Below are positions 3,410-51,647 of a stretch of DNA of 64,000 bases, piece by piece. This DNA is from Methanofollis sp. W23 (lineage in GTDB: Archaea; Halobacteriota; Methanomicrobia; Methanomicrobiales; Methanofollaceae): assembly GCF_017875325.1 (NCBI RefSeq), contig NZ_JAGGMN010000001.1, positions 620,001 through 684,000 on the forward strand. The letters are read 5' to 3'. Position 1 is the stretch's first letter. The number at the start of each line of letters is the position of its first letter. The notes below the pieces were generated by a model, which was not told the origin of the DNA, searched no databases, and saw nothing but the letters and a program-made list of their open reading frames with translations. The position numbers were made by a program, and so were the translations under genes.

Positions 3410-3939
3410 ATGTTATGCTCCAGTGTGCTCTTCTGGGTCCTGGCGCTTTTGAACGCGATAGGAGATACCCAGTATTGATTGGTGCTCTCAGACTTTTAAT
3501 GCTCTGGAGGGGACCAGGTGTCCATGAGGGGCGGCGGTGTCTCCTCGGGGCCGACGTGGATCAGAAGTCTGGCCATCCATCTGGGAGGAGACTTGTTTGA
3601 AGATTGAACTCTGTAGGATCCCTCCAGACGGTTTATCTGTGGCGGGGGACGGCAATCCCTCTTCAAGGAGTTCGAATATGTTTCTCCTGCTCAATCTTCC
3701 TCCTGGGGGTGCGGGCGGCACTCGCCCCAGGCGGGAGTGTAGGGGAAGGCCAGAGAGTTCTGGGATTTTTACAGAGAATAATCGGAGGGGGTGGTCTGTG
3801 TGGTGCGTATTCATTGGAAGCAGGGGGGCACCATAATGCCGGGGCCGCGATCATGACCGCCCTTGGGCTCCTTCTCCTCTTCTTTCTCCTGAATTTGATC
3901 TCAGGGTTCACTCCTGAGGACTGCGGTGACTTTTAGTCC
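3410..3939. other. Intergenic region with a family A element
   Basis: This is the promoter-side gap of argG. The small ORFs in it overlap a family A repeat (3606-3777) and are not supported as genes. Confidence 0.6.
3606..3777 (+). repeat. Family A MITE-like element (about 170 bp)
   Basis: The left end CTCTGTAGGATCCCTC near 3609 and the right end GGGATTTTTACAGAG at 3762-3776 are inverted. In between lie a hairpin around GGGCGGCACTCGCCC and the conserved core word TTCGAATATG/CAATCTTC. It is diverged but complete. Confidence 0.7.
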
Positions 3940-10802: not shown

Positions 10803-11197
10803 GCTCCTTCTCCGGTGCGAGATTACGAAATGCTCGGGGAACGCAGGAGTTATCAGCACAAAAGGCGGTTTACGGTGAACTCCATCACCTGAATAGAATG
10901 AATTATGCACCGGTGCCGCATTAATTCTTTGCAATCGGGTGAGGGAGATGTGATGAAGGACATCTTTTGGGAATCAAAATGATGGCGTTCATCTGATCCT
11001 GCACCCTGCGATCTCCTGCCTCTCGCCATGCCGGGGGTCCGGGGGCACTCGTCCCCCGGCGCGAGACGAAGGAAAGGCGGTCCAATCGCGCTCACACCAA
11101 AACGTCGTGAAGGATTCTCCAGACCTGGATCGTTCCATCTCGATCCGGTCCCCTCTCCCACCCACACTTCCAAAAATCTCAGAGCAACAAAAAAAGA
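10803..11197. other. Intergenic region
   Basis: No supported gene. Around 11027-11070 is a G/C hairpin typical of family A cores (GGGGGCACTCGTCCCCC); no terminal repeat is clear. The rest shows nothing nameable. Confidence 0.5.
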
Positions 11198-20484: not shown

Positions 20485-20789
20485 CGGTTTCATCGCCGCC
20501 CCCTGCACATCTTCGTCGTGGGGGGTTCCGGGGGGTGCAACCCCCCGGCGTGAGACGGCAGTGAAGGTTCTGTGATTGGGGACGGCACCCATGATCATCA
20601 CACCTTCCCATACTCTCGTGTCGGGGGCGAATGCCCCCCGGACCCCAGGGGACCACGAGAGGGGCGAGAAGGCACAATCGATGATCTTGAAAAGGGGATC
20701 GCCGTCCTTGACCTCTCGTGGTGCGGGGGGGCTCGGGGGACGGCCAGCCCCCCGCCAGAGAGAGACATCCAGAGGAGTTCTCCAGAGCC
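20485..20789 (-). repeat. Composite family A element
   Basis: Two hairpin cores (GGGGGGTTCCGGGGGGTGCA near 20520 and GGGGGCGAATGCCCCCCGG near 20625) and a right end GGAGTTCTCCAGAGCC at 20774-20789 occur in series. The intervening CACGAGAGG...CCTCTCGTGG words are inverted. It looks like one full copy plus part of another. Confidence 0.6.
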
Positions 20790-24971: not shown

Positions 24972-25090
24972 GGCCCTGTAGAAATCCTCTTGATCGTTCT
25001 CTTCGACGGGGGGGCTGCCCGTGACGTGAGCATAAGGGAAGGCGGATGACACGCATTCTCCCCACGAGAAGTGAGGGTTTCTACAGAACC
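24972..25090 (+). repeat. Family A element, internally deleted (119 bp)
   Basis: Both terminal repeats are intact (GGCCCTGTAGAAATCCTC and GAGGGTTTCTACAGAACC). The middle of full copies is missing: the left hairpin is cut short and joined to the AAGGCGGATGACACGCATTC segment that precedes the right end. Confidence 0.85.
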
Positions 25091-26077: not shown

Positions 26078-26167
26078 CTGTTTCACCCCTGGCACTACTG
26101 GATCTGGACCGGGTTTTGATCTGGGATAAGCCTATTTTTCGGGGTGTGATCAACGACCTATTTTTTC

Positions 26168-26396
26168 GGCTCTGTAGAAATCCTCTTGATAGTTCTCTTC
26201 GACGGGGGGTTGCACCCCCCGGACCCCCCGCCACACGATAGGTCGAGGACGGCATCCCGTCTTTCAGGATCTTCTATTCAGCCTTCCCGCCTCAATCTTC
26301 ATCCTGGGGGTCCGGGGGCAGCGCCCCCGGCGGGAGGCTATGAGAAGGCGGATGACACACATTCTCCCCACGATATGTGAGGGTTTCTACAGAGCC
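26168..26396 (+). repeat. Family A MITE-like element, full copy (229 bp)
   Basis: This is the reference copy. The ends GGCTCTGTAGAAATCCTC and GAGGGTTTCTACAGAGCC are inverted repeats. Inside are two hairpins (GGGGGGTTGCACCCCCC and GGGGGCAGCGCCCCC) and the words CACGATAGGTCGAGGACGGC and AAGGCGGATGACACACATTC. T-rich bases (ATTTTTT) flank both sides. No ORF. Confidence 0.88.
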
Positions 26397-26562
26397 ATTT
26401 TTTCCATTGCTGGTGTGGTGGTTCGATGCGAATCACGGAATTCGCGTGATGGGCACTATTATCAGTCAGATAATATTTCTGGTTCACTTTGAGTGAGTGA
26501 GAATGTGGGAAATTAAAAAGGATTATTTACGTGGGCAATAAAATATTGGGTCTGGTGATTTT

Positions 26563-27720
26563 GTGGAAAGAATAAATAATTATGCATATGACTTTGCGAT
26601 ATCGTATGCTGGAGAGGATCTCAACATTGCTAAAGAAATTAAACAGTCAATATCTGAAAAATCAGGACGATATAATGTTTTTCTTGCATCAGATGAACAA
26701 AGTACCCTAGTAGGTACAGATGGGGAAAAATTTTTTGAAGATTTATTTAAAAATTCAAAACAGGTTATTGTTCTTTTTTCAGAAAATTATAAGCGAAAAG
26801 ATTGGCCTCGTTTTGAATTCGATGTTATCCAGAAAAGAGATGAAAAAAACAGATTTATCCCTATAAAATTAGATGAAGTACAGATCTATGGGCTTCCGTC
26901 TACAATATTGTATATGTCTTTCTCAAATAATCCTGAGGAGATTGCTGAAATAGCAATAAATAAATTAATTGAATTTGAAAGGGACAACGGTATCCAAAGG
27001 GAAACTGAACTTCAAAATAATATACGAACCCTAAAGAACTCAAAAGGCGCACTTGACAGGGCTTACCAGTTGGTCATTGACGACCGTGAAAGAACTCCTC
27101 TTGATGATATTGATTTCCCTGACGGAAGTTTTCAGAAGTCCTATTCTATTATTAACATAGAAGATATATCCTACTCAAAAATATCAAGAATAGAGGTCAA
27201 GATCAATATTCCTGCTAATTTGAATAAAGAAACTGTTGAGTATAATATAAAACATTGTAATGCGTCAGTATTTAATGAGCATAAACCGGAAGCTTTGGCA
27301 ATACATGTCTATTCTGATCAAGCTTCAAATTTCCTGGGATTCGATGATAGATACAACGTTGCTAGTTCTAATTTCGCTCTTTATGGTGAATGGGGTAGAG
27401 CAGAAGAGAGCTTTGCATACAATATGCCTGTAAGTAAATTTGGATACACTATAAAATATGAGGACAGTTATTTCAATAATGACATAAAAATCGATTCAGG
27501 CCAGGATATCGCTAAAAAACTTGTATATGAACTGTTTGAGGAAAAGATATCTCAATTTATCCGTGATTCTCAAGATACTAAAACAAGAGATGTACTTAAA
27601 AAATTTGAAAAAATCAAGCCAGTTGAAGTTAAAAAAATGTTGAATAATTTAAAAAAGAAAAAATTGATTAAAAAAGTTGGATCGAAATACAACTGGCATT
27701 GGGAGATCGCAAATAAATAA
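26563..27720 (+). CDS. TIR-domain protein with C-terminal winged-helix-like region
   Basis: A 385-residue protein starting at GTG. Residues 7-140 form a TIR-like domain: YDFAISYAGEDLNIAKEI opens it, and WPRFEFD (81-87) supplies the expected acidic residue. The middle (about 155-330) is unrecognised. The C-terminus (about 335-385), with VEVKKMLNNLKKKKLIKKVG, looks like a winged helix. Many prokaryotic TIR proteins degrade NAD or make signals in antiphage defence; that role is inference. Codon and base use are far more AT-rich than neighbours, a sign of transfer. It is flanked by a family A element and no partner gene is evident. Confidence 0.8.
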   Translation: MERINNYAYDFAISYAGEDLNIAKEIKQSISEKSGRYNVFLASDEQSTLVGTDGEKFFEDLFKNSKQVIVLFSENYKRKDWPRFEFDVIQKRDEKNRFIPIKLDEVQIYGLPSTILYMSFSNNPEEIAEIAINKLIEFERDNGIQRETELQNNIRTLKNSKGALDRAYQLVIDDRERTPLDDIDFPDGSFQKSYSIINIEDISYSKISRIEVKINIPANLNKETVEYNIKHCNASVFNEHKPEALAIHVYSDQASNFLGFDDRYNVASSNFALYGEWGRAEESFAYNMPVSKFGYTIKYEDSYFNNDIKIDSGQDIAKKLVYELFEEKISQFIRDSQDTKTRDVLKKFEKIKPVEVKKMLNNLKKKKLIKKVGSKYNWHWEIANK

Positions 27721-32372: not shown

Positions 32373-32615
32373 GGTTTTGCAGAAATCATCTTGATGGTTC
32401 TCTTCGACGGGGGGTTGGCCACCCCCCGAACCCCCCGCGCGACACGATAGGCGGCGGACTGCAACCCCCCTTTCATGGTTATTTCTCCGCCTTCCGCTAC
32501 AATCTTCATCCTGGGGGTCCGGGGGCGGAACCCCCGGCGTGAGCATGGGAGAAGGCGATGGATTCAGTTCACAGGGGGGTTGAGGTGATGAAAAGAGGAT
32601 GGTTTCTACAGAGCC
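32373..32615 (+). repeat. Family A MITE-like element, full copy (243 bp)
   Basis: Ends are GGTTTTGCAGAAATCATC and GATGGTTTCTACAGAGCC. It has both hairpins (GGGGGGTTGGCCACCCCCC and GGGGGCGGAACCCCC) and the CACGATAGGCGGCGGACTGC core word. Confidence 0.85.
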
Positions 32616-32755
32616 ATTTTTTCTTCTTGTGGTCGATCTGCTCACACCTCGAAAATTGAAAATGGTCTCGCGCTCTTTTTGGTCGCATCTCGATGATCAG
32701 AGATCTTTCTGTCAGGAAAATGCGGAGCATGTTCTGCGCATGAAAAATATTTTGT

Positions 32756-32972
32756 GACCCTGTAGAAACCCTCACTTATCGTAGGGAGAATGCGTGTCAT
32801 CCGCCTTCCCATAGCCTCCCGCCGGGGGCGAGTGCCGCCCGGACCCCTGGGATGAAGATTGAGCCGGGAAGGCACCATCAATGACCATGAAGAGGGATTG
32901 CCGTCCTCTCCTATCCTCGTGGTGCGGGGGTTCGGGGGGTGCACCCCCCCGCCGAAGAGAACGATCAAGAGG
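32756..32972 (-). repeat. Family A element, reversed, missing its last repeat
   Basis: Compared with 26168-26396 it is inverted: GACCCTGTAGAAACCCTCAC starts it and GAACGATCAAGAG ends it. The expected GATTTCTACAGAGCC is replaced by the start of the next element. Confidence 0.75.
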
Positions 32973-33113
32973 GCCCTGTAGAAACCCCCACCAATTCCTG
33001 ATGCGAGCGTGACTCAACCTCCTTCCCCATCATCTCACCGGGGGCGAGTGCCGCCTGGACCTCCAGGACCACGATAGGGCTGGAAGGCAGAATCGATGAC
33101 TTTGATGAGGGGG
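32972..33113 (-). repeat. Family A half-element joined head to tail
   Basis: GGCCCTGTAGAAACCCCCAC starts directly at the broken end of the previous copy. It continues through the GGGGGCGAGTGCCGCC hairpin and CACGATAGGG and stops after GATGACTTTGATGAGGGGG. Confidence 0.7.
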
Positions 33114-33337
33114 TGACTGGCAAAATAAATTTAAAGATGAAAATAGATTGATCAATCAAAGAAACAAGGCTCAGACAATTTTCAGAAGATCTGAGACACC
33201 ACCGGAATCAAAGGGAAGTGGGAGAAAAAAATTCTAAGTTATAAAATTGATATTTTAATATAGAATTATACCGTTGATACAAAAAAGTGTGGAAAACCAC
33301 TCTCGTCAATTTGATTAAATAAAATCCGGAACTTATA

Positions 33338-34465
33338 ATGCAGCATGTAATAAAAAACTATGAAAACAAGTATTTAATGAGCTGTGCCGAACTTGTAAAA
33401 GAAACATGGGATTTTCATTCTAGTTATCAAGATCTAACAGATGTAATGCCTATCTACATTGCTTATGTGCGAGAATGTATAGATTTCAGCTTACACCTTG
33501 AAATCATCGTTGATGAAAACGATAAGGTTTGTGGGTTGCTTTTTGGCAGCATTGAGAATCCATCTTTTGTGAAAAAGATTAAGTGCTTTTCAAATCATTT
33601 GCAGACAAGATTATGGATACGGAAAAATTGGATCAGCGGTAAATTTGGGAACAAATCAGTTGCCTTTCAAAATTTAAAATCACACGCAAAAATTGAACAA
33701 GATGGTGAGAAATGTTCAGACCTTTTTGATGGTGAAGTAAATCTCTTTATTGTCAGCAAGGAACTTCGTGGCAAACGGTTTGGCTACAGGTTAATGAACA
33801 ACTATGTGGAATTTTGCCGCAAAAATCATTTAAAAACCATATTTTTATGGACGGAGCTTGGTTGTAGTTATACCTTTTACGAACGCTATGGGTTTAAAAA
33901 ATATTCTACTTTCCATAACGAAAACTTGACTGATGGAAACAAAACTCAAGATAACGGATTCGTATATTATTACGATATAAACAATCCAGAAGAAAGCGAA
34001 ACAAAGATTACTTTACGCCCAGTTGATGATACAAACAAAAACGCAGTTGTAGCCCTTGAGGTATCAGAAAGCCAAAAGCATATGATTGAGCCTATTACAG
34101 AATGTTTGAATGATGCCCAGATACATGCTTATGATATAGAGTGGGAAACGTCTGCAATTCTTTTAAATAGCAAAGTGATTGGCTTTTCTATGTATGGTGT
34201 GTGGCACGACAGCAAAGGAAAAGATGAAGACGAAGTTTGGCTTGACCGTTTTATGATTGACCAGAAATATCAAGGCAAAGGCTACGGGAAATTGGCATTA
34301 AGAGAATTGATCGCTATGCTTACTGCAAAATACCATTGTGATGACATATACCTTTCTGTATATGAAAATAATCAATCGGCCATTGCTTTGTATAAAAAAA
34401 CAGGTTTTAGATTTAATGGAGAAAAAGATGAAAATGGTGAACATGTTATGGTTCTTGAAATGTAA
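33338..34465 (+). CDS. Tandem GNAT acetyltransferase
   Basis: A 375-residue protein with two GNAT domains. The first (about 1-215) has the CoA loop KELRGKRFGYRLM. The second (about 225-375) has RFMIDQKYQGKGYGKLAL and resembles spermine/spermidine acetyltransferases (BltD type). A polyamine or drug substrate is possible but not shown. Base composition is strongly AT-rich, unlike the GC-rich neighbours, which suggests transfer from a low-GC bacterium. It sits between family A elements. Confidence 0.85.
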   Translation: MQHVIKNYENKYLMSCAELVKETWDFHSSYQDLTDVMPIYIAYVRECIDFSLHLEIIVDENDKVCGLLFGSIENPSFVKKIKCFSNHLQTRLWIRKNWISGKFGNKSVAFQNLKSHAKIEQDGEKCSDLFDGEVNLFIVSKELRGKRFGYRLMNNYVEFCRKNHLKTIFLWTELGCSYTFYERYGFKKYSTFHNENLTDGNKTQDNGFVYYYDINNPEESETKITLRPVDDTNKNAVVALEVSESQKHMIEPITECLNDAQIHAYDIEWETSAILLNSKVIGFSMYGVWHDSKGKDEDEVWLDRFMIDQKYQGKGYGKLALRELIAMLTAKYHCDDIYLSVYENNQSAIALYKKTGFRFNGEKDENGEHVMVLEM

Positions 34466-34988
34466 TGAGTGAAATGAAGAAAGTGTATAGTTTGTGTATG
34501 GGAAGTGGATATACGGCTTTGTAGATCCCCTCACTTCTTCTCGGTGCAAGGGTGATTCAATCACCTTCCCACACAATCACGCCGGGGGCGAGTGCCGCCC
34601 GGGCCCCCGGCCCACCGGGACCACGATAGGGCCGGGAAGGCACCATCAATGACCATGAAGAGGGATTGCCGTCCTCTGCCTATCCTCGTGGGGGGGTCTG
34701 GGGGGCGGCCAAGCCCTCCGCCAGAGAACGATCAAGAGGATTTCTACAGAACCTATTTTGTATTTTCTTCACCGGGAATTTTCGAATCTCTGTGTTCGTG
34801 AACTCAGCGATATCCAGGTCTGTGGTATCGGGGATGAACCGAGTTCACGCATACACGAGTTGACACCCTCGCCGGACCCGCACCAGGATGAGGGAAGAGG
34901 ATCCATACCGCCTGGAATCGATTTCCTGTACCCGTCCTGGACCCCACCTGGACCGTCAGGCCGAAACCTCCATGAAGGGGGAGCGGCC
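34466..34988. other. Intergenic region with a full family A element
   Basis: It holds the reversed family A copy at 34515-34753. After that, GAACCGAGTTCACGCATACA (34836-34855) matches the body of family B. ORFs here are shadows. Confidence 0.6.
34515..34753 (-). repeat. Family A MITE-like element, reversed full copy (239 bp)
   Basis: Ends are GGCTTTGTAGATCCCCTCAC and GAGGATTTCTACAGAACC. The order of internal blocks is reversed relative to 26168-26396: GGGGGCGAGTGCCGCCCGGG first and GGGGGGCGGCCAAGCCC last. Confidence 0.85.
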
Positions 34989-36769: not shown

Positions 36770-37007
36770 GGCCTTGTAGAATTTCTCTAGATAGCCATCT
36801 CGGCGGGGGGCACTCGCCCCTCGCCCCCGGCGCGACACGATAGGGGGTGGACTGCAACCTCTCTTTAAGGATCGTTTCTCCGCCTTCCGCCCCAATCTTC
36901 ATTCTGGGGGACGATCTATGATCTTCGAGGAACCCCCGGCACGATGTAGAGGGGGACAGGTGATCAGAAGAGAATTCTCACCGCGCCATGAGGGTCTCTA
37001 CAGCGTC
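36770..37007 (+). repeat. Family A MITE-like element, full copy (238 bp)
   Basis: Ends are GGCCTTGTAGAATTTCTC and GAGGGTCTCTACAGCGTC. The left hairpin and CACGATAGGGGGTGGACTGC are present; the right half is diverged. Confidence 0.8.
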
Positions 37008-37015
37008 ATTCTTTT

Positions 37016-37250
37016 GGTTCTGTAGAAATCCTCTTGATGAATCTCTCTGTCAGGGGGCTTGGCCGCCCCCCGAACCCCCCCGCCCCACGATAGGTCGAGG
37101 ACGGCAACACTCTCTTGATGGTCATCAATTCTGCCTTCCCGACCCTATCGTGGTTCCGGGGGGTCCGGGGGCAGCGCCCCCTGCCAAAGGGGTAGGAAGG
37201 CGGGAGACACACGTCTCCCCCACACAAGAGGTGAGGATTTCTACAGCGCC
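37016..37250 (+). repeat. Family A MITE-like element, full copy (235 bp)
   Basis: Ends are GGTTCTGTAGAAATCCTC and GAGGATTTCTACAGCGCC. The core words CACGATAGGTCGAGGACGGC and GCCTTCCCGACCCTATCGTG are inverted with respect to each other, so the element is near-palindromic. It starts 8 bp after the previous copy. Confidence 0.88.
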
Positions 37251-42126: not shown

Positions 42127-43184
42127 GTTGGTTTCCTCCTTTTATTTCCTACAGACCTGGCCCCTGTCGAGGGCTGTGATCCAGATCCCGCCAAGGTGGC
42201 ACATGTTCATGATGGTGAGCCTGGTCAGAATGGTATGGCCGTCCTGATCCGCGGGTTCACGAGCGCCGTGGTTGGGTGGCATCGTTATCCCTGGTGCAGA
42301 GGAGACGGTCGCCGTCGGGTGGTCGGGCTCATTGAGGGGTGTCTGTGAAGTCTGGGGGAGGGTGTCTGCACGCACAGATCATCATCGCGTCTGGCAGGAT
42401 GTCTTCCAGGGCTGCGGCGCGGCTACCATGAGAACCGAATTCTCGGATCTCCCGCGCCCCAGGCACCTTCTCATCAGTTTCAGATTTTTTCTGTCTGTAG
42501 TGCTGTTCTCTTTGCGTTACTCGAGGATCGCCGCGGCCTTGATCAGGTTCCCTCGCATGTCATGCTGGTCGCCGCGGTCAGCAGAATATCCTCACACGAG
42601 GATCGTCACCTGGAAATTGATATAGGTTTGGTTTACTGCCTGCCGATGATCGGACCATCTATATATCGTGCCATGCTGGCGTCGCCCGAAGTCGCGATCG
42701 TTCAGGGTATGTGGTGGCATTTACCGGTGCCTCTGCCCCGTAGTGACTGGCAGTAACGACGCTCTGCAGGCATGCCCCCCCTCTCTCGATGACGAAGGCC
42801 CTGGCGGACATTCCTGGGCCACAGGATGAGCAAGATTCCGGCCCTGTAGAAACCCGTACCAATTCTTGGTGCGAGCGCGATTCCCCCGCCTTCCCCCATC
42901 TTCCCTGGGAGAGCAAGATCGGGCCAGGTAGGCACACTCGTTCGCCATGAAGAGCGCACTGCCGTCCACCGCCTCTCGCTCGCACGGGAGGTTAAGGGGG
43001 CGGCACGCCCGCCGCCAAAGATAATACCTCTCCAGAGCCAAAATTCCGGTCTTCTCCTTGAGATCCTCCACATCGAATTTGTGTGAGGAGGGGGACAGGG
43101 GGACGCACCGGTGCAGGAGCATCTCAGGGCGGTCAAAGCGACCATATACCGCATCGGTGCATAACTACTCCGAAGGAAGATCTC
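42127..43184. other. Intergenic region with a family A element
   Basis: The only structure I can support is a family A element at 42840-43039. Several ORFs cross the region but lack protein-like sequence. The left part is the upstream region of the SDR gene; AT-rich words near 42620-42665 may be promoter remains. Confidence 0.55.
42840..43039 (-). repeat. Family A MITE-like element, reversed (200 bp)
   Basis: GGCCCTGTAGAAACCCGTAC starts it and ACCTCTCCAGAGCC ends it. The middle carries a CATGAAGAGCGCACTGCCGT word and the GGGGGCGGCACGCCC hairpin half. Confidence 0.75.
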
Positions 43185-47161: not shown

Positions 47162-47974
47162 ATGAGTATCGGCATCGGCGGGATTCGAGAGGCTTTTGCT
47201 CCGTTCTTCAGGGACCCCGACCGCGCAAAACTCCGTGACATCCTGAAGGACAATCTCGGCGAGTTCAATCATCTGGATTATAAGGAGATGATGATCGAGG
47301 CGTCGAAGTTGGCGCGGGTGATCATCTCGATGGCGAACAGTACGGGGGGGATCATCGTGTTTGGGGTGCGGGAACTCGAAGACAACACCTATGCCCCGAT
47401 CGGGCTTGACACGCTTGAGGACAAGACGCATATCCAGCAGAGGTTGAGCAGGTATATCCCGGAAAATCTCGAGTACGAGATCCTCGATTTTGCGTATGAC
47501 GAGTCTGAGTTCGGTCTGCTGAGAGGGAAAAAGTTCCAGGTGATTTTAGTCAGGGATACCCCTGAGAATATCCCTTTTCTCCCGGAGAGCGCGGGGGAGA
47601 GTATACAGAGAAACCGGATCTACTACCGGGGGAATACCAACTCTGACGAGGCGACCTATGAACAGATCCAGGAGATCCTGGAGCGGAGGACGACAGCGCT
47701 CACGGGGATGACCTCGAAAGAGAGGTTTAAAAATGATCTCTTCCAGCTCAAAGTGTTGTATCGCCACCTTTCTCCAGCCCGTACGGTCTCGAAGGAGAAT
47801 TTCGCCGAGGCGCTTGGTGCCGGGATGGGCGGGGTGTGGGGGGCGTGGTATGAGTCGACTCTGAACCCGTATTATCCGGAGGAGTCGTTTGATGAGTTCG
47901 TCGCCAGAATGATCGCACGAAAGAAGAGTATTATCGAGCGCGCGATCATGAACGCCGACCAGAGGCGGCCGTGA
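47162..47974 (+). CDS. AlbA_2 (Schlafen-type) domain protein
   Basis: A 270-residue protein. The AlbA_2 signature is visible in NHLDYKEMMIEASKLARVII followed by SMANSTGGIIVFGVRE (about 37-70). It continues with RIYYRGNTNSDEATYEQI, typical of the end of this domain. The C-terminal 90 residues are unrecognised. AlbA_2 proteins bind nucleic acid and several act in regulation or defence; the role here is inferred. The ATG at 47162 is one of two options in the same frame. Confidence 0.85.
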   Translation: MSIGIGGIREAFAPFFRDPDRAKLRDILKDNLGEFNHLDYKEMMIEASKLARVIISMANSTGGIIVFGVRELEDNTYAPIGLDTLEDKTHIQQRLSRYIPENLEYEILDFAYDESEFGLLRGKKFQVILVRDTPENIPFLPESAGESIQRNRIYYRGNTNSDEATYEQIQEILERRTTALTGMTSKERFKNDLFQLKVLYRHLSPARTVSKENFAEALGAGMGGVWGAWYESTLNPYYPEESFDEFVARMIARKKSIIERAIMNADQRRP

Positions 47975-48331
47975 TCTGAGAGGGGAGGCGGAAAGGCTCT
48001 GGAGAAGTCCTACGTCTATTCCTGGAGTGTCCGGGGCCTGCCCGGAGTCGAAGACTTCCTGTGGTGTGGCAGAACAGAGATCTGCCTCTCGACGTCCAGA
48101 TCGGATTGGGTGACGAGTTTCAATCCTTGTTGTGATGGATCAGGCTCTTCGACAGGGGGCAATTTTCGCCTATTTGCCGAGATCTCCATGCAGACACCAT
48201 GGTTGAGAGAGGTGTTCTGCACATCTCTCTCATATTGGATCCTTTATAAAGATGTGCTCGCTTTATATGTGCACCCCCGGTTTGATCGGAGGGGCGCTCA
48301 CGTCCCCCTCATCCTCAGACCCTCCTCCTGA
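47975..48331. other. Intergenic region with a single CRISPR-type repeat
   Basis: It contains the CRISPR-like unit at 48117-48153 and no supported gene. Confidence 0.5.
48117..48153 (+). CRISPR. Lone CRISPR-type repeat (no array seen)
   Basis: A 37-base unit begins GTTTCAATCCTTGTT and ends GCTCTTCGAC, the beginning and length common for type I/III CRISPR repeats of euryarchaea. No second copy is visible within about 150 bp on either side, so it is a relic or a chance likeness, not an array. Confidence 0.4.
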
Positions 48332-48694
48332 TCACTGAAGAGGTGCATCCTCTCTCACCACCTCCTCCACCCCCTCCCGCACCAGGATCTCGCGCCCCTT
48401 CCCTGGCCACACATACACCTCCAGCAACCGCAGCGCCTCCAGGTGCTTCAACTGCTCATGAAACACGGTGTAGCTCATCGGCTCCTCCTCGCAGACCCGC
48501 TCATACACCCTTCCAGAGATCGCCTGGACGCCCATCAGCCCCTCGGCCACGACCGCCTTGAGCACCAGACGCTCGGAGGCAGGGAGCGCCCGCACGGTCA
48601 TGGCAAGGTGGAGGTGCGCCGAGGCCGCCGCCCCCGCGAGCACGTCCTCGGCCGCCACCTCTCTCAGTCTGTCCAGAACATTTTCTGATCTTCT
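48332..48694 (-). pseudogene. Orc1/Cdc6-type C-terminal winged-helix fragment
   Basis: The open frame gives RRSENVLDRLREVAAEDVLA and then ASERLVLKAVVAEGLMGVQA..., with YTVFHEQLKHLEALRLLEV and GKGREILVRE. The order matches the last helix and winged-helix DNA-binding domain of Orc1/Cdc6 replication initiators, but the AAA+ ATPase part is missing. A stop lies just upstream, so it is probably the end of a lost initiator gene. A stand-alone wHTH protein starting at GTG 48658 is the alternative. Confidence 0.5.
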
Positions 48695-48896
48695 TCAGTC
48701 TCATCCCTGATGAGCGATTATGGTCCTCTGAAATCGCCCTGTCTTTCTCGTCCAGAAGGAATATCATCAATGGTATCCCCGGATCAATTTTATATCGTTT
48801 CTGAGTATATTTGTGGTTCAAAAAATCTTATAAGTCCTCCAAATAGAATTTTTTGCGCACAGATACATTTGATACCTCAAAAAACCAATTATAATT

Positions 48897-49151
48897 ATGG
48901 CTCATGTAACGGTTGCCGTTCTGCTCCCAGACGGATCACACGAGATCAGTAGCCGGGGATCTGTCGACGCTGGCCGGGCGGCGATTGGATTTTATCGGAA
49001 CGCAAAGAAAGCACAAGGCGTCCTGCTCATCAAGGAGAAGAAGGTCATCCTCGACTCTCCCCTGGGATTTGCAGGTTCTTCAGAGGGAAAGGAACTGTTC
49101 TCATCTGCGAAGTCTGAGAATCCAGAATCAAGGATCAAAAAAGAAGCCTGA
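48897..49151 (+). CDS. Hypothetical small protein
   Basis: An 84-residue protein starting MAHVTVAVLLPDGSHEI. The first 60 residues look like a compact beta-alpha fold (RAAIGFYRNAKKAQGVLLIK), followed by a polar tail. AATTATAATT immediately precedes the ATG, so the message may be leaderless. No family is recognised. Confidence 0.5.
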   Translation: MAHVTVAVLLPDGSHEISSRGSVDAGRAAIGFYRNAKKAQGVLLIKEKKVILDSPLGFAGSSEGKELFSSAKSENPESRIKKEA

Positions 49152-51305: not shown

Positions 51306-51487
51306 GGACTTTGTAGGAACTCTCCAGATGGCCAACTCTGCGGGGGGCTTGGCCGCCCCCAGAACCCCCTGCACCACGATAAGGTCGAGGATGGCATTCC
51401 CTCTTCAGGGATTTCGAATCTGCCGTCCCTGCCCAATCTTGATCCTGGGGGGTCAGGAGTCTTTCCCCCGACGCGGAGACTATGGGG
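51306..51487 (+). repeat. Family A element, missing the right end
   Basis: GGACTTTGTAGGAACTCTCC starts it; GGGGGGCTTGGCCGCCCCC, CACGATAAGGTCGAGGATGG and GATCCTGGGGGGTCAGG follow in the standard order. The right terminal repeat is absent. Confidence 0.7.
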
Positions 51488-51647
51488 CGGCGTGCAGATC
51501 AGACGTGCCGCTTCAATTGCAGACCCTTCTCCAGCATCCCGCTCTATGAGGAGCACAAGATCACTACACGACCCGGCGGCTCATGGTCATGACCACCACA
51601 TCGATTTGGTCTCGTCAGCATGCCCCCTCGCGAGAAATATACAAACC

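Follow-up and report, generated by a model that had tools for sequence, protein, structure and literature searches.

Sequence comparisons confirm that family A is a genuine family of miniature inverted-repeat transposable elements (MITEs) of the genus Methanofollis. These non-autonomous elements have very probably been copied by an IS5-family DDE transposase (NF033579/PF01609) acting on their 18-bp ends. This reading is based on the terminal inverted repeats (TIRs), a rule of 8-bp duplications followed by both the MITEs and the insertion sequence (IS), an empty site, the dispersal of the copies and the presence of intact parents in other genomes. The DNA under study is a 64,000-nucleotide stretch of Methanofollis sp. 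W23 (hereafter the window; G000:C1:620001-684000), which lies within a 2.907-Mb genome.

Structure of the family A element

The full-length element is ~230 bp long and is bounded by 18-bp TIRs (GGYYCTGTAGAAAYCCTC); a ~120-bp deletion form also occurs. Full copies measure 229-245 bp, number hundreds per genome and carry no transposase gene, as expected of MITEs, which are multicopy elements shorter than ~600 bp. The window contains 16 TIR-like ends with at most 3 mismatches to GGCTCTGTAGAAATCCTC, whereas shuffled sequences contain 0.06 on average and never more than 1. The original prediction proposed that a consensus be built from all copies, and alignment of 67 full-length copies (215-250 bp, taken from ~1 Mb of stretches) gives one of 232 bp, with a median identity to the consensus of 82% and a median pairwise identity of 72%. 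The TIRs (column conservation 92% and 89%) and the hairpin stems are the best-conserved parts of the alignment.

Nearly the whole element can be aligned to its reverse complement; thus, its description as near-palindromic was correct. The core words of the element had also been described as inverse copies of each other, which holds only approximately, as CACGATAGGTCGAGG is found exactly in 14 of the 67 copies and its exact inverse, CTCGACCTATCGTG, in none of them.

Abundance and distribution

A profile built from the 67 full copies identifies 26 separate pieces in the window, where at least fifteen full or partial copies had been predicted. It identifies 376 pieces in a 964-kb sample, some stretches of which were picked because they contained matches, whereas reversing this sample leaves no match. 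A 340-kb set picked without regard to matches contains 98 pieces, 31 of them at least 190 bp long, that cover 4.4% of its bases. Extrapolation from this set suggests ~840 pieces and ~265 near-full copies in the genome, amounting to about 4.4% of its length. A pattern search allowing up to 2 mismatches found 597 ends in the whole genome but only 2 matches when the pattern was reversed; only these end-pattern counts cover the entire genome, the other counts being drawn from sampled stretches. A search for further copies in this genome and its relatives, proposed alongside the original prediction, thus yielded hundreds more here, and family A is present in all 12 Methanofollis genomes. Outside the genus, only matches of 30-40 bp to the G/C core were found, in 2 genomes, and the MITE body is otherwise confined to Methanofollis.

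Evidence for insertion and age of the copies

Exact flanking duplications number 30 at a length of 8 bp, 5 to 10 at 4-7 bp and 0 at 9-12 bp, and the target sites are AT-rich. Among 62 end pairs separated by 222-250 bp, 18 are flanked by an exact 8-bp duplication, compared to 0.009 expected for unlinked ends. The target-site duplications that a transposable element should leave are, therefore, present, exact and far above chance.

Comparison with M. aquaemaris BCRC 16166 (G001) provided an empty site between related genomes. A 230-bp family A copy of M. aquaemaris (G001:C1:1163404-1163633) lies between two copies of AATTAAAG, while the matching flanks in the Methanofollis sp. W23 genome contain a single AATTAAAG and read straight through. 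This is the one clean interspecies empty site in the compared stretches.

Exact duplications are retained by 22 of the 67 full copies, even though the copies are diverse, which argues against one simple burst of transposition. The median nearest-neighbour identity is 92.5% for copies with exact duplications and 83.5% for those with decayed flanks, as estimated from about one third of the genome, such that true neighbours may be missed, and with some copies found through their likeness to the window copy. These identities would fit repeated waves of transposition from several source copies.

Genomic context and the role of the hairpins

The strong G/C hairpins raise the question of whether family A consists of domesticated terminators or mRNA-stability elements that are selected by the host and whose transposon-like ends are incidental. 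The stems are indeed more conserved than the spacers, no scored copy lies within a predicted gene, and a role in transcription has been suggested for G-rich hairpin repeats of Methanomicrobiaceae (PMC8044849). However, family A copies occupy 18 tandem, 11 divergent and 6 convergent gaps, compared to 43%, 25% and 33%, respectively, of background intergenic bases (gene calls were heuristic and a few overlapping end pairs were counted more than once). Convergent gaps, where terminators or REP-like elements would be enriched, account for 6 of the 35 contexts and are not enriched; thus, neither a terminator role nor the earlier suggestion of an effect of the hairpins on transcripts is supported. 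RNAalifold gave no useful covarying consensus for the hairpins, and the proportion of paired cells (94.7%, against 93.9% after shuffling) does not demonstrate structural selection. Furthermore, insertion is demonstrated by the exact 8-bp duplications and the empty site, and the conservation of the TIRs, which transposition would require, equals that of the stems. We consider host-selected regulatory hairpins very improbable. Conservation of TIRs and stems alike is as expected if transposability shaped both, and the hairpins would most simply be part of the compact fold-back structure of a mobile element.

The probable parent insertion sequence

The most likely source of family A, as judged from its ends, would be an IS5-family IS (NCBIfam NF033579) of 977-1010 bp with the same TIRs and exact 8-bp duplications. 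The ISH1 subgroup of the IS5 family generates duplications of this length. An intact IS of 1008 bp is found in M. formosanus (locus L137; strain DSM 15483 of this species is our genome G004), with TIRs GGCTCTGTAGAATTCCTT and GGCCCTGTAGAAACCCTT and an exact duplication GAACAATC, and another Methanofollis (G011) contains three complete copies, flanked by duplications GTGCATAT, CATCGAAC and AAATTTAT. The complete elements of sister genomes recovered with PF01609 are 1007-1008 bp long, resemble family A at their ends and are flanked by exact duplications of 8 bp. Their transposase scores 237 and 234 bits against NF033579, for which the curated IS5 cut-off is 140. Thus, an IS with ends matching those of family A, which the original prediction had proposed as a check, does exist in sister genomes. 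Across the order Methanomicrobiales, the IS transposase is found in 50 of 232 genomes and 18 of 40 genera, and many of these loci have similar ends and exact 8-bp duplications; the end at one of them (L231) is GGCTCTGTAGAAATCCTC, identical to the MITE end.

With the IS transposase as query, matches were obtained in 9 of the 12 Methanofollis genomes, mostly fragments or broken genes, and none in the genome of the window. Family A is, therefore, orphaned in this genome, and the earlier statement that none of the copies has a transposase here can be extended to the whole genome with respect to this query. The single PF01609 match in this genome is a broken, IS1634-like gene. We rejected IS1634 as the parent because the IS1634 transposases of the genus are associated with other ends.

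MITE and IS have no internal sequence in common and are alike in their ends only, so the parental link rests on the TIR sequence and the length of the duplication. Archaeal MITEs usually resemble their partner IS in the ends only (PMC3852290). An IS6-family transposase would also produce 8-bp duplications at elements with GG...TGT ends, and the TIR motif GGCTCTG together with the duplication length agrees with published descriptions of that family (PMC7986276, PMC6807381). However, the IS6 transposase domain (PF13610) is found in none of the 12 Methanofollis genomes, so that no such transposase with matching ends is present among them, and in only 9 of the 232 genomes of the order, while sister species carry IS5-family elements with the same ends as family A. 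Movement by an IS6-family enzyme, thus, has almost no likelihood.

In the proposed IS5-based origin, the transposase would recognize the 18-bp ends, and each insertion would duplicate 8 bp of an AT-rich target. The enzyme may have moved the MITEs in trans, and subsequent loss of the IS in this lineage would have left the copies unable to move. The MITE design originally assigned to these repeats is, therefore, supported by the 8-bp duplications, the further copies, the empty site and the IS with matching ends.

Family A copies in the window

The reported copy (26168-26396, + strand) is a full-length MITE of 229 bp that matches profile positions 1-232 with 222 bits. Its left TIR (GGCTCTGTAGAAATCCTC, 26168-26185, +) and right TIR (GGCTCTGTAGAAACCCTC, 26379-26396, -) are flanked by exact copies of the target-site duplication ATTTTTTC at 26160-26167 and 26397-26404. 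A second copy that is 99% identical is located at G000:C1:1458575-1458803. The reported copy adjoins a gene (26563-27720, +) for a 385-residue protein with an N-terminal TIR domain (a protein domain; PF13676 match); a weak ThsB-like PADLOC match makes this a possible defence gene.

A second full-length copy (32373-32615, +; 172.6 bits) is flanked by CTTTTTTC and ATTTTTTC, a duplication with 1 mismatch. Two others are near neighbours, one (36770-37007, +; 89.8 bits) ending 8 bp upstream of the next (37016-37250, +; 209 bits). In the profile alignment, the 119-bp element at 24972-25090 (+) is an internal-deletion derivative in which the left 48 bp of the consensus are joined to the right 75 bp. 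A degraded copy at 3607-3757 (+) scores 59.5 bits over 3641-3757 and has an end with 3 mismatches at 3607. Partial copies are located at 20599-20789 (-; 141.2 bits), 42840-43025 (-; 107.4 bits) and 51308-51512 (+; 106.5 bits).

The window also contains a fluoride riboswitch at 10837-10898 (-; Rfam RF01734, 51.6 bits) and a single CRISPR-DR7-like repeat at 48117-48153 (-; Rfam RF01320, 45 bits), with no repeat array around it within 47900-49000.

A candidate composite unit carrying a GNAT gene

A TIR-bounded segment of 1998 bp (32756-34753) comprises family A pieces, a double-GNAT gene and a further family A MITE. Its left arm consists of a MITE with the terminal ~14 bp missing at its inner end (32758-32972, -; 169.6 bits), as seen in the sequence, and a second, truncated MITE that abuts it (32972-33113, -; 96.4 bits). 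The right arm is a full-length copy (34515-34753, -; 189.6 bits) whose flanks show a duplication on the outer side only. The passenger gene (33338-34465, +) encodes a predicted double-GNAT N-acetyltransferase of 375 residues, which matches PF00583 in two stretches (83 bits). The outermost ends of the unit are flanked by an exact duplication, TATTTTGT, at 32748-32755 and 34754-34761, and no separate duplication is present at either inner end. The G+C content is 34.8% for the gene and 34% for the enclosed segment, compared to 58.9% for the window. In M. aquaemaris and M. formosanus, the corresponding 80-kb stretches retain the neighbouring peptidase and cupin genes but contain no GNAT gene; the MITE pair thus resembles a composite transposon devoid of a transposase.

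Unrelated insertions might instead flank the gene, with the common 8-bp flank arising by chance. Since 0.073 exact matches are expected among the 512 end pairs that lie 1-3 kb apart, a single fortuitous match is possible, and TATTTTGT alone is suggestive only; the left arm, with its two fused MITE pieces, has also been rearranged. Against this, TATTTTGT is no homopolymer, the inner ends lack duplications, and the segment is AT-rich and its gene missing at the matching place in both relatives. We regard such a coincidence as rather unlikely. Our tentative proposal, for which the odds are a little short of even, is that a MITE pair captured and inserted a foreign double-GNAT gene, in a family that has outlived the loss of its own transposase. 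The unit may have moved as one composite, or a circle of gene and MITE may have recombined into a resident MITE.

Related elements

Relatives of 0.5-1.5 kb, which we refer to as type B, are found at L063:7730-8502, L046:13312-13936, L068:5253-5806 and L154:1398-2885. Their ends are GGCTCTGTAGAATCGGGCATGAAC or similar, they contain several hairpin modules, and the duplications that flank them are exact and 8 bp long. In some, one end is of the family A type, and such hybrids suggest that modules have been exchanged. Type B copies (L036:5760-6550; L154:1380-2910) also contain a second inverted pair, GAGGTCATCCCAAAACTCTCCAG ... GAGAGTTTTGGGATATGCTC, which has the appearance of a further small element, or of the parent IS of one, that inserted there. 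A 2.8-kb nest with type B ends GGCTCTGTTGAATC (L031:374-3161; G000:C1:19856-22643) encloses what we take to be an IS110-like remnant, split by a broken IS1634-like transposase gene. It was considered as a parent and rejected as nested debris.

Significance and comparison with known systems

These results name a parent IS for a very abundant Methanofollis repeat that accounts for much of the intergenic DNA of this genome, and of which hundreds of copies persist in the genome without a transposase. The original prediction held that the family may never have been described, and no description of it was found in the open literature, of which our coverage was incomplete; the repeat is, thus, apparently undescribed. 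The findings also caution against taking family A hairpins for conserved regulators. The GNAT unit lends itself to testing whether methanogens acquire genes by way of MITEs; if the proposal is true, MITE pairs would be a route of gene uptake in these organisms.

The family A hairpins recall the G-quadruplex/hairpin repeats of Methanomicrobiaceae, which are likewise intergenic and share the design of G-run, TCC loop, G-run and C-run (PMC8044849), but no family A copy was found to contain the published G-quadruplex motif, with its interrupted G-runs. A motif of that G-run/TCC/G-run/C-run type is present at L114:1686-1735 (G003), with no family A TIRs around it.

Neither the derivation of MITEs from IS5-family elements nor the flanking of genes by MITEs is new in kind. 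Family A is similar to archaeal MITEs derived from IS5-family elements, such as those tied to ISMac15, ISMma12 and ISMba19 in Methanosarcina, which are also short and geneless, have IS5-family-like TIRs and show scant similarity to the IS beyond the ends (PMC3852290). However, the copy numbers of such MITEs listed in that work are 5-24, and their duplications measure 0-3 bp, compared to hundreds of copies and 8 bp for family A, which, unlike them, has no partner IS in its own genome. The Methanomicrobiales IS5-family elements (NF033579; L137) share the TIR and the exact 8-bp duplication with family A, but are 1 kb long, encode a transposase and differ in internal sequence. Unusual features of family A are its load, at about 4% of the genome, the apparently complete loss of its transposase, and the passenger gene. 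The closest parallels to the GNAT unit are the MITE-flanked class 1 integrons of Acinetobacter and mcr-5 with IR148, in which two transposase-less elements also bracket a passenger (PMC10969869). The GNAT unit differs from these in being archaeal, in carrying a putative acetyltransferase gene and in its evidence, a single outer duplication.
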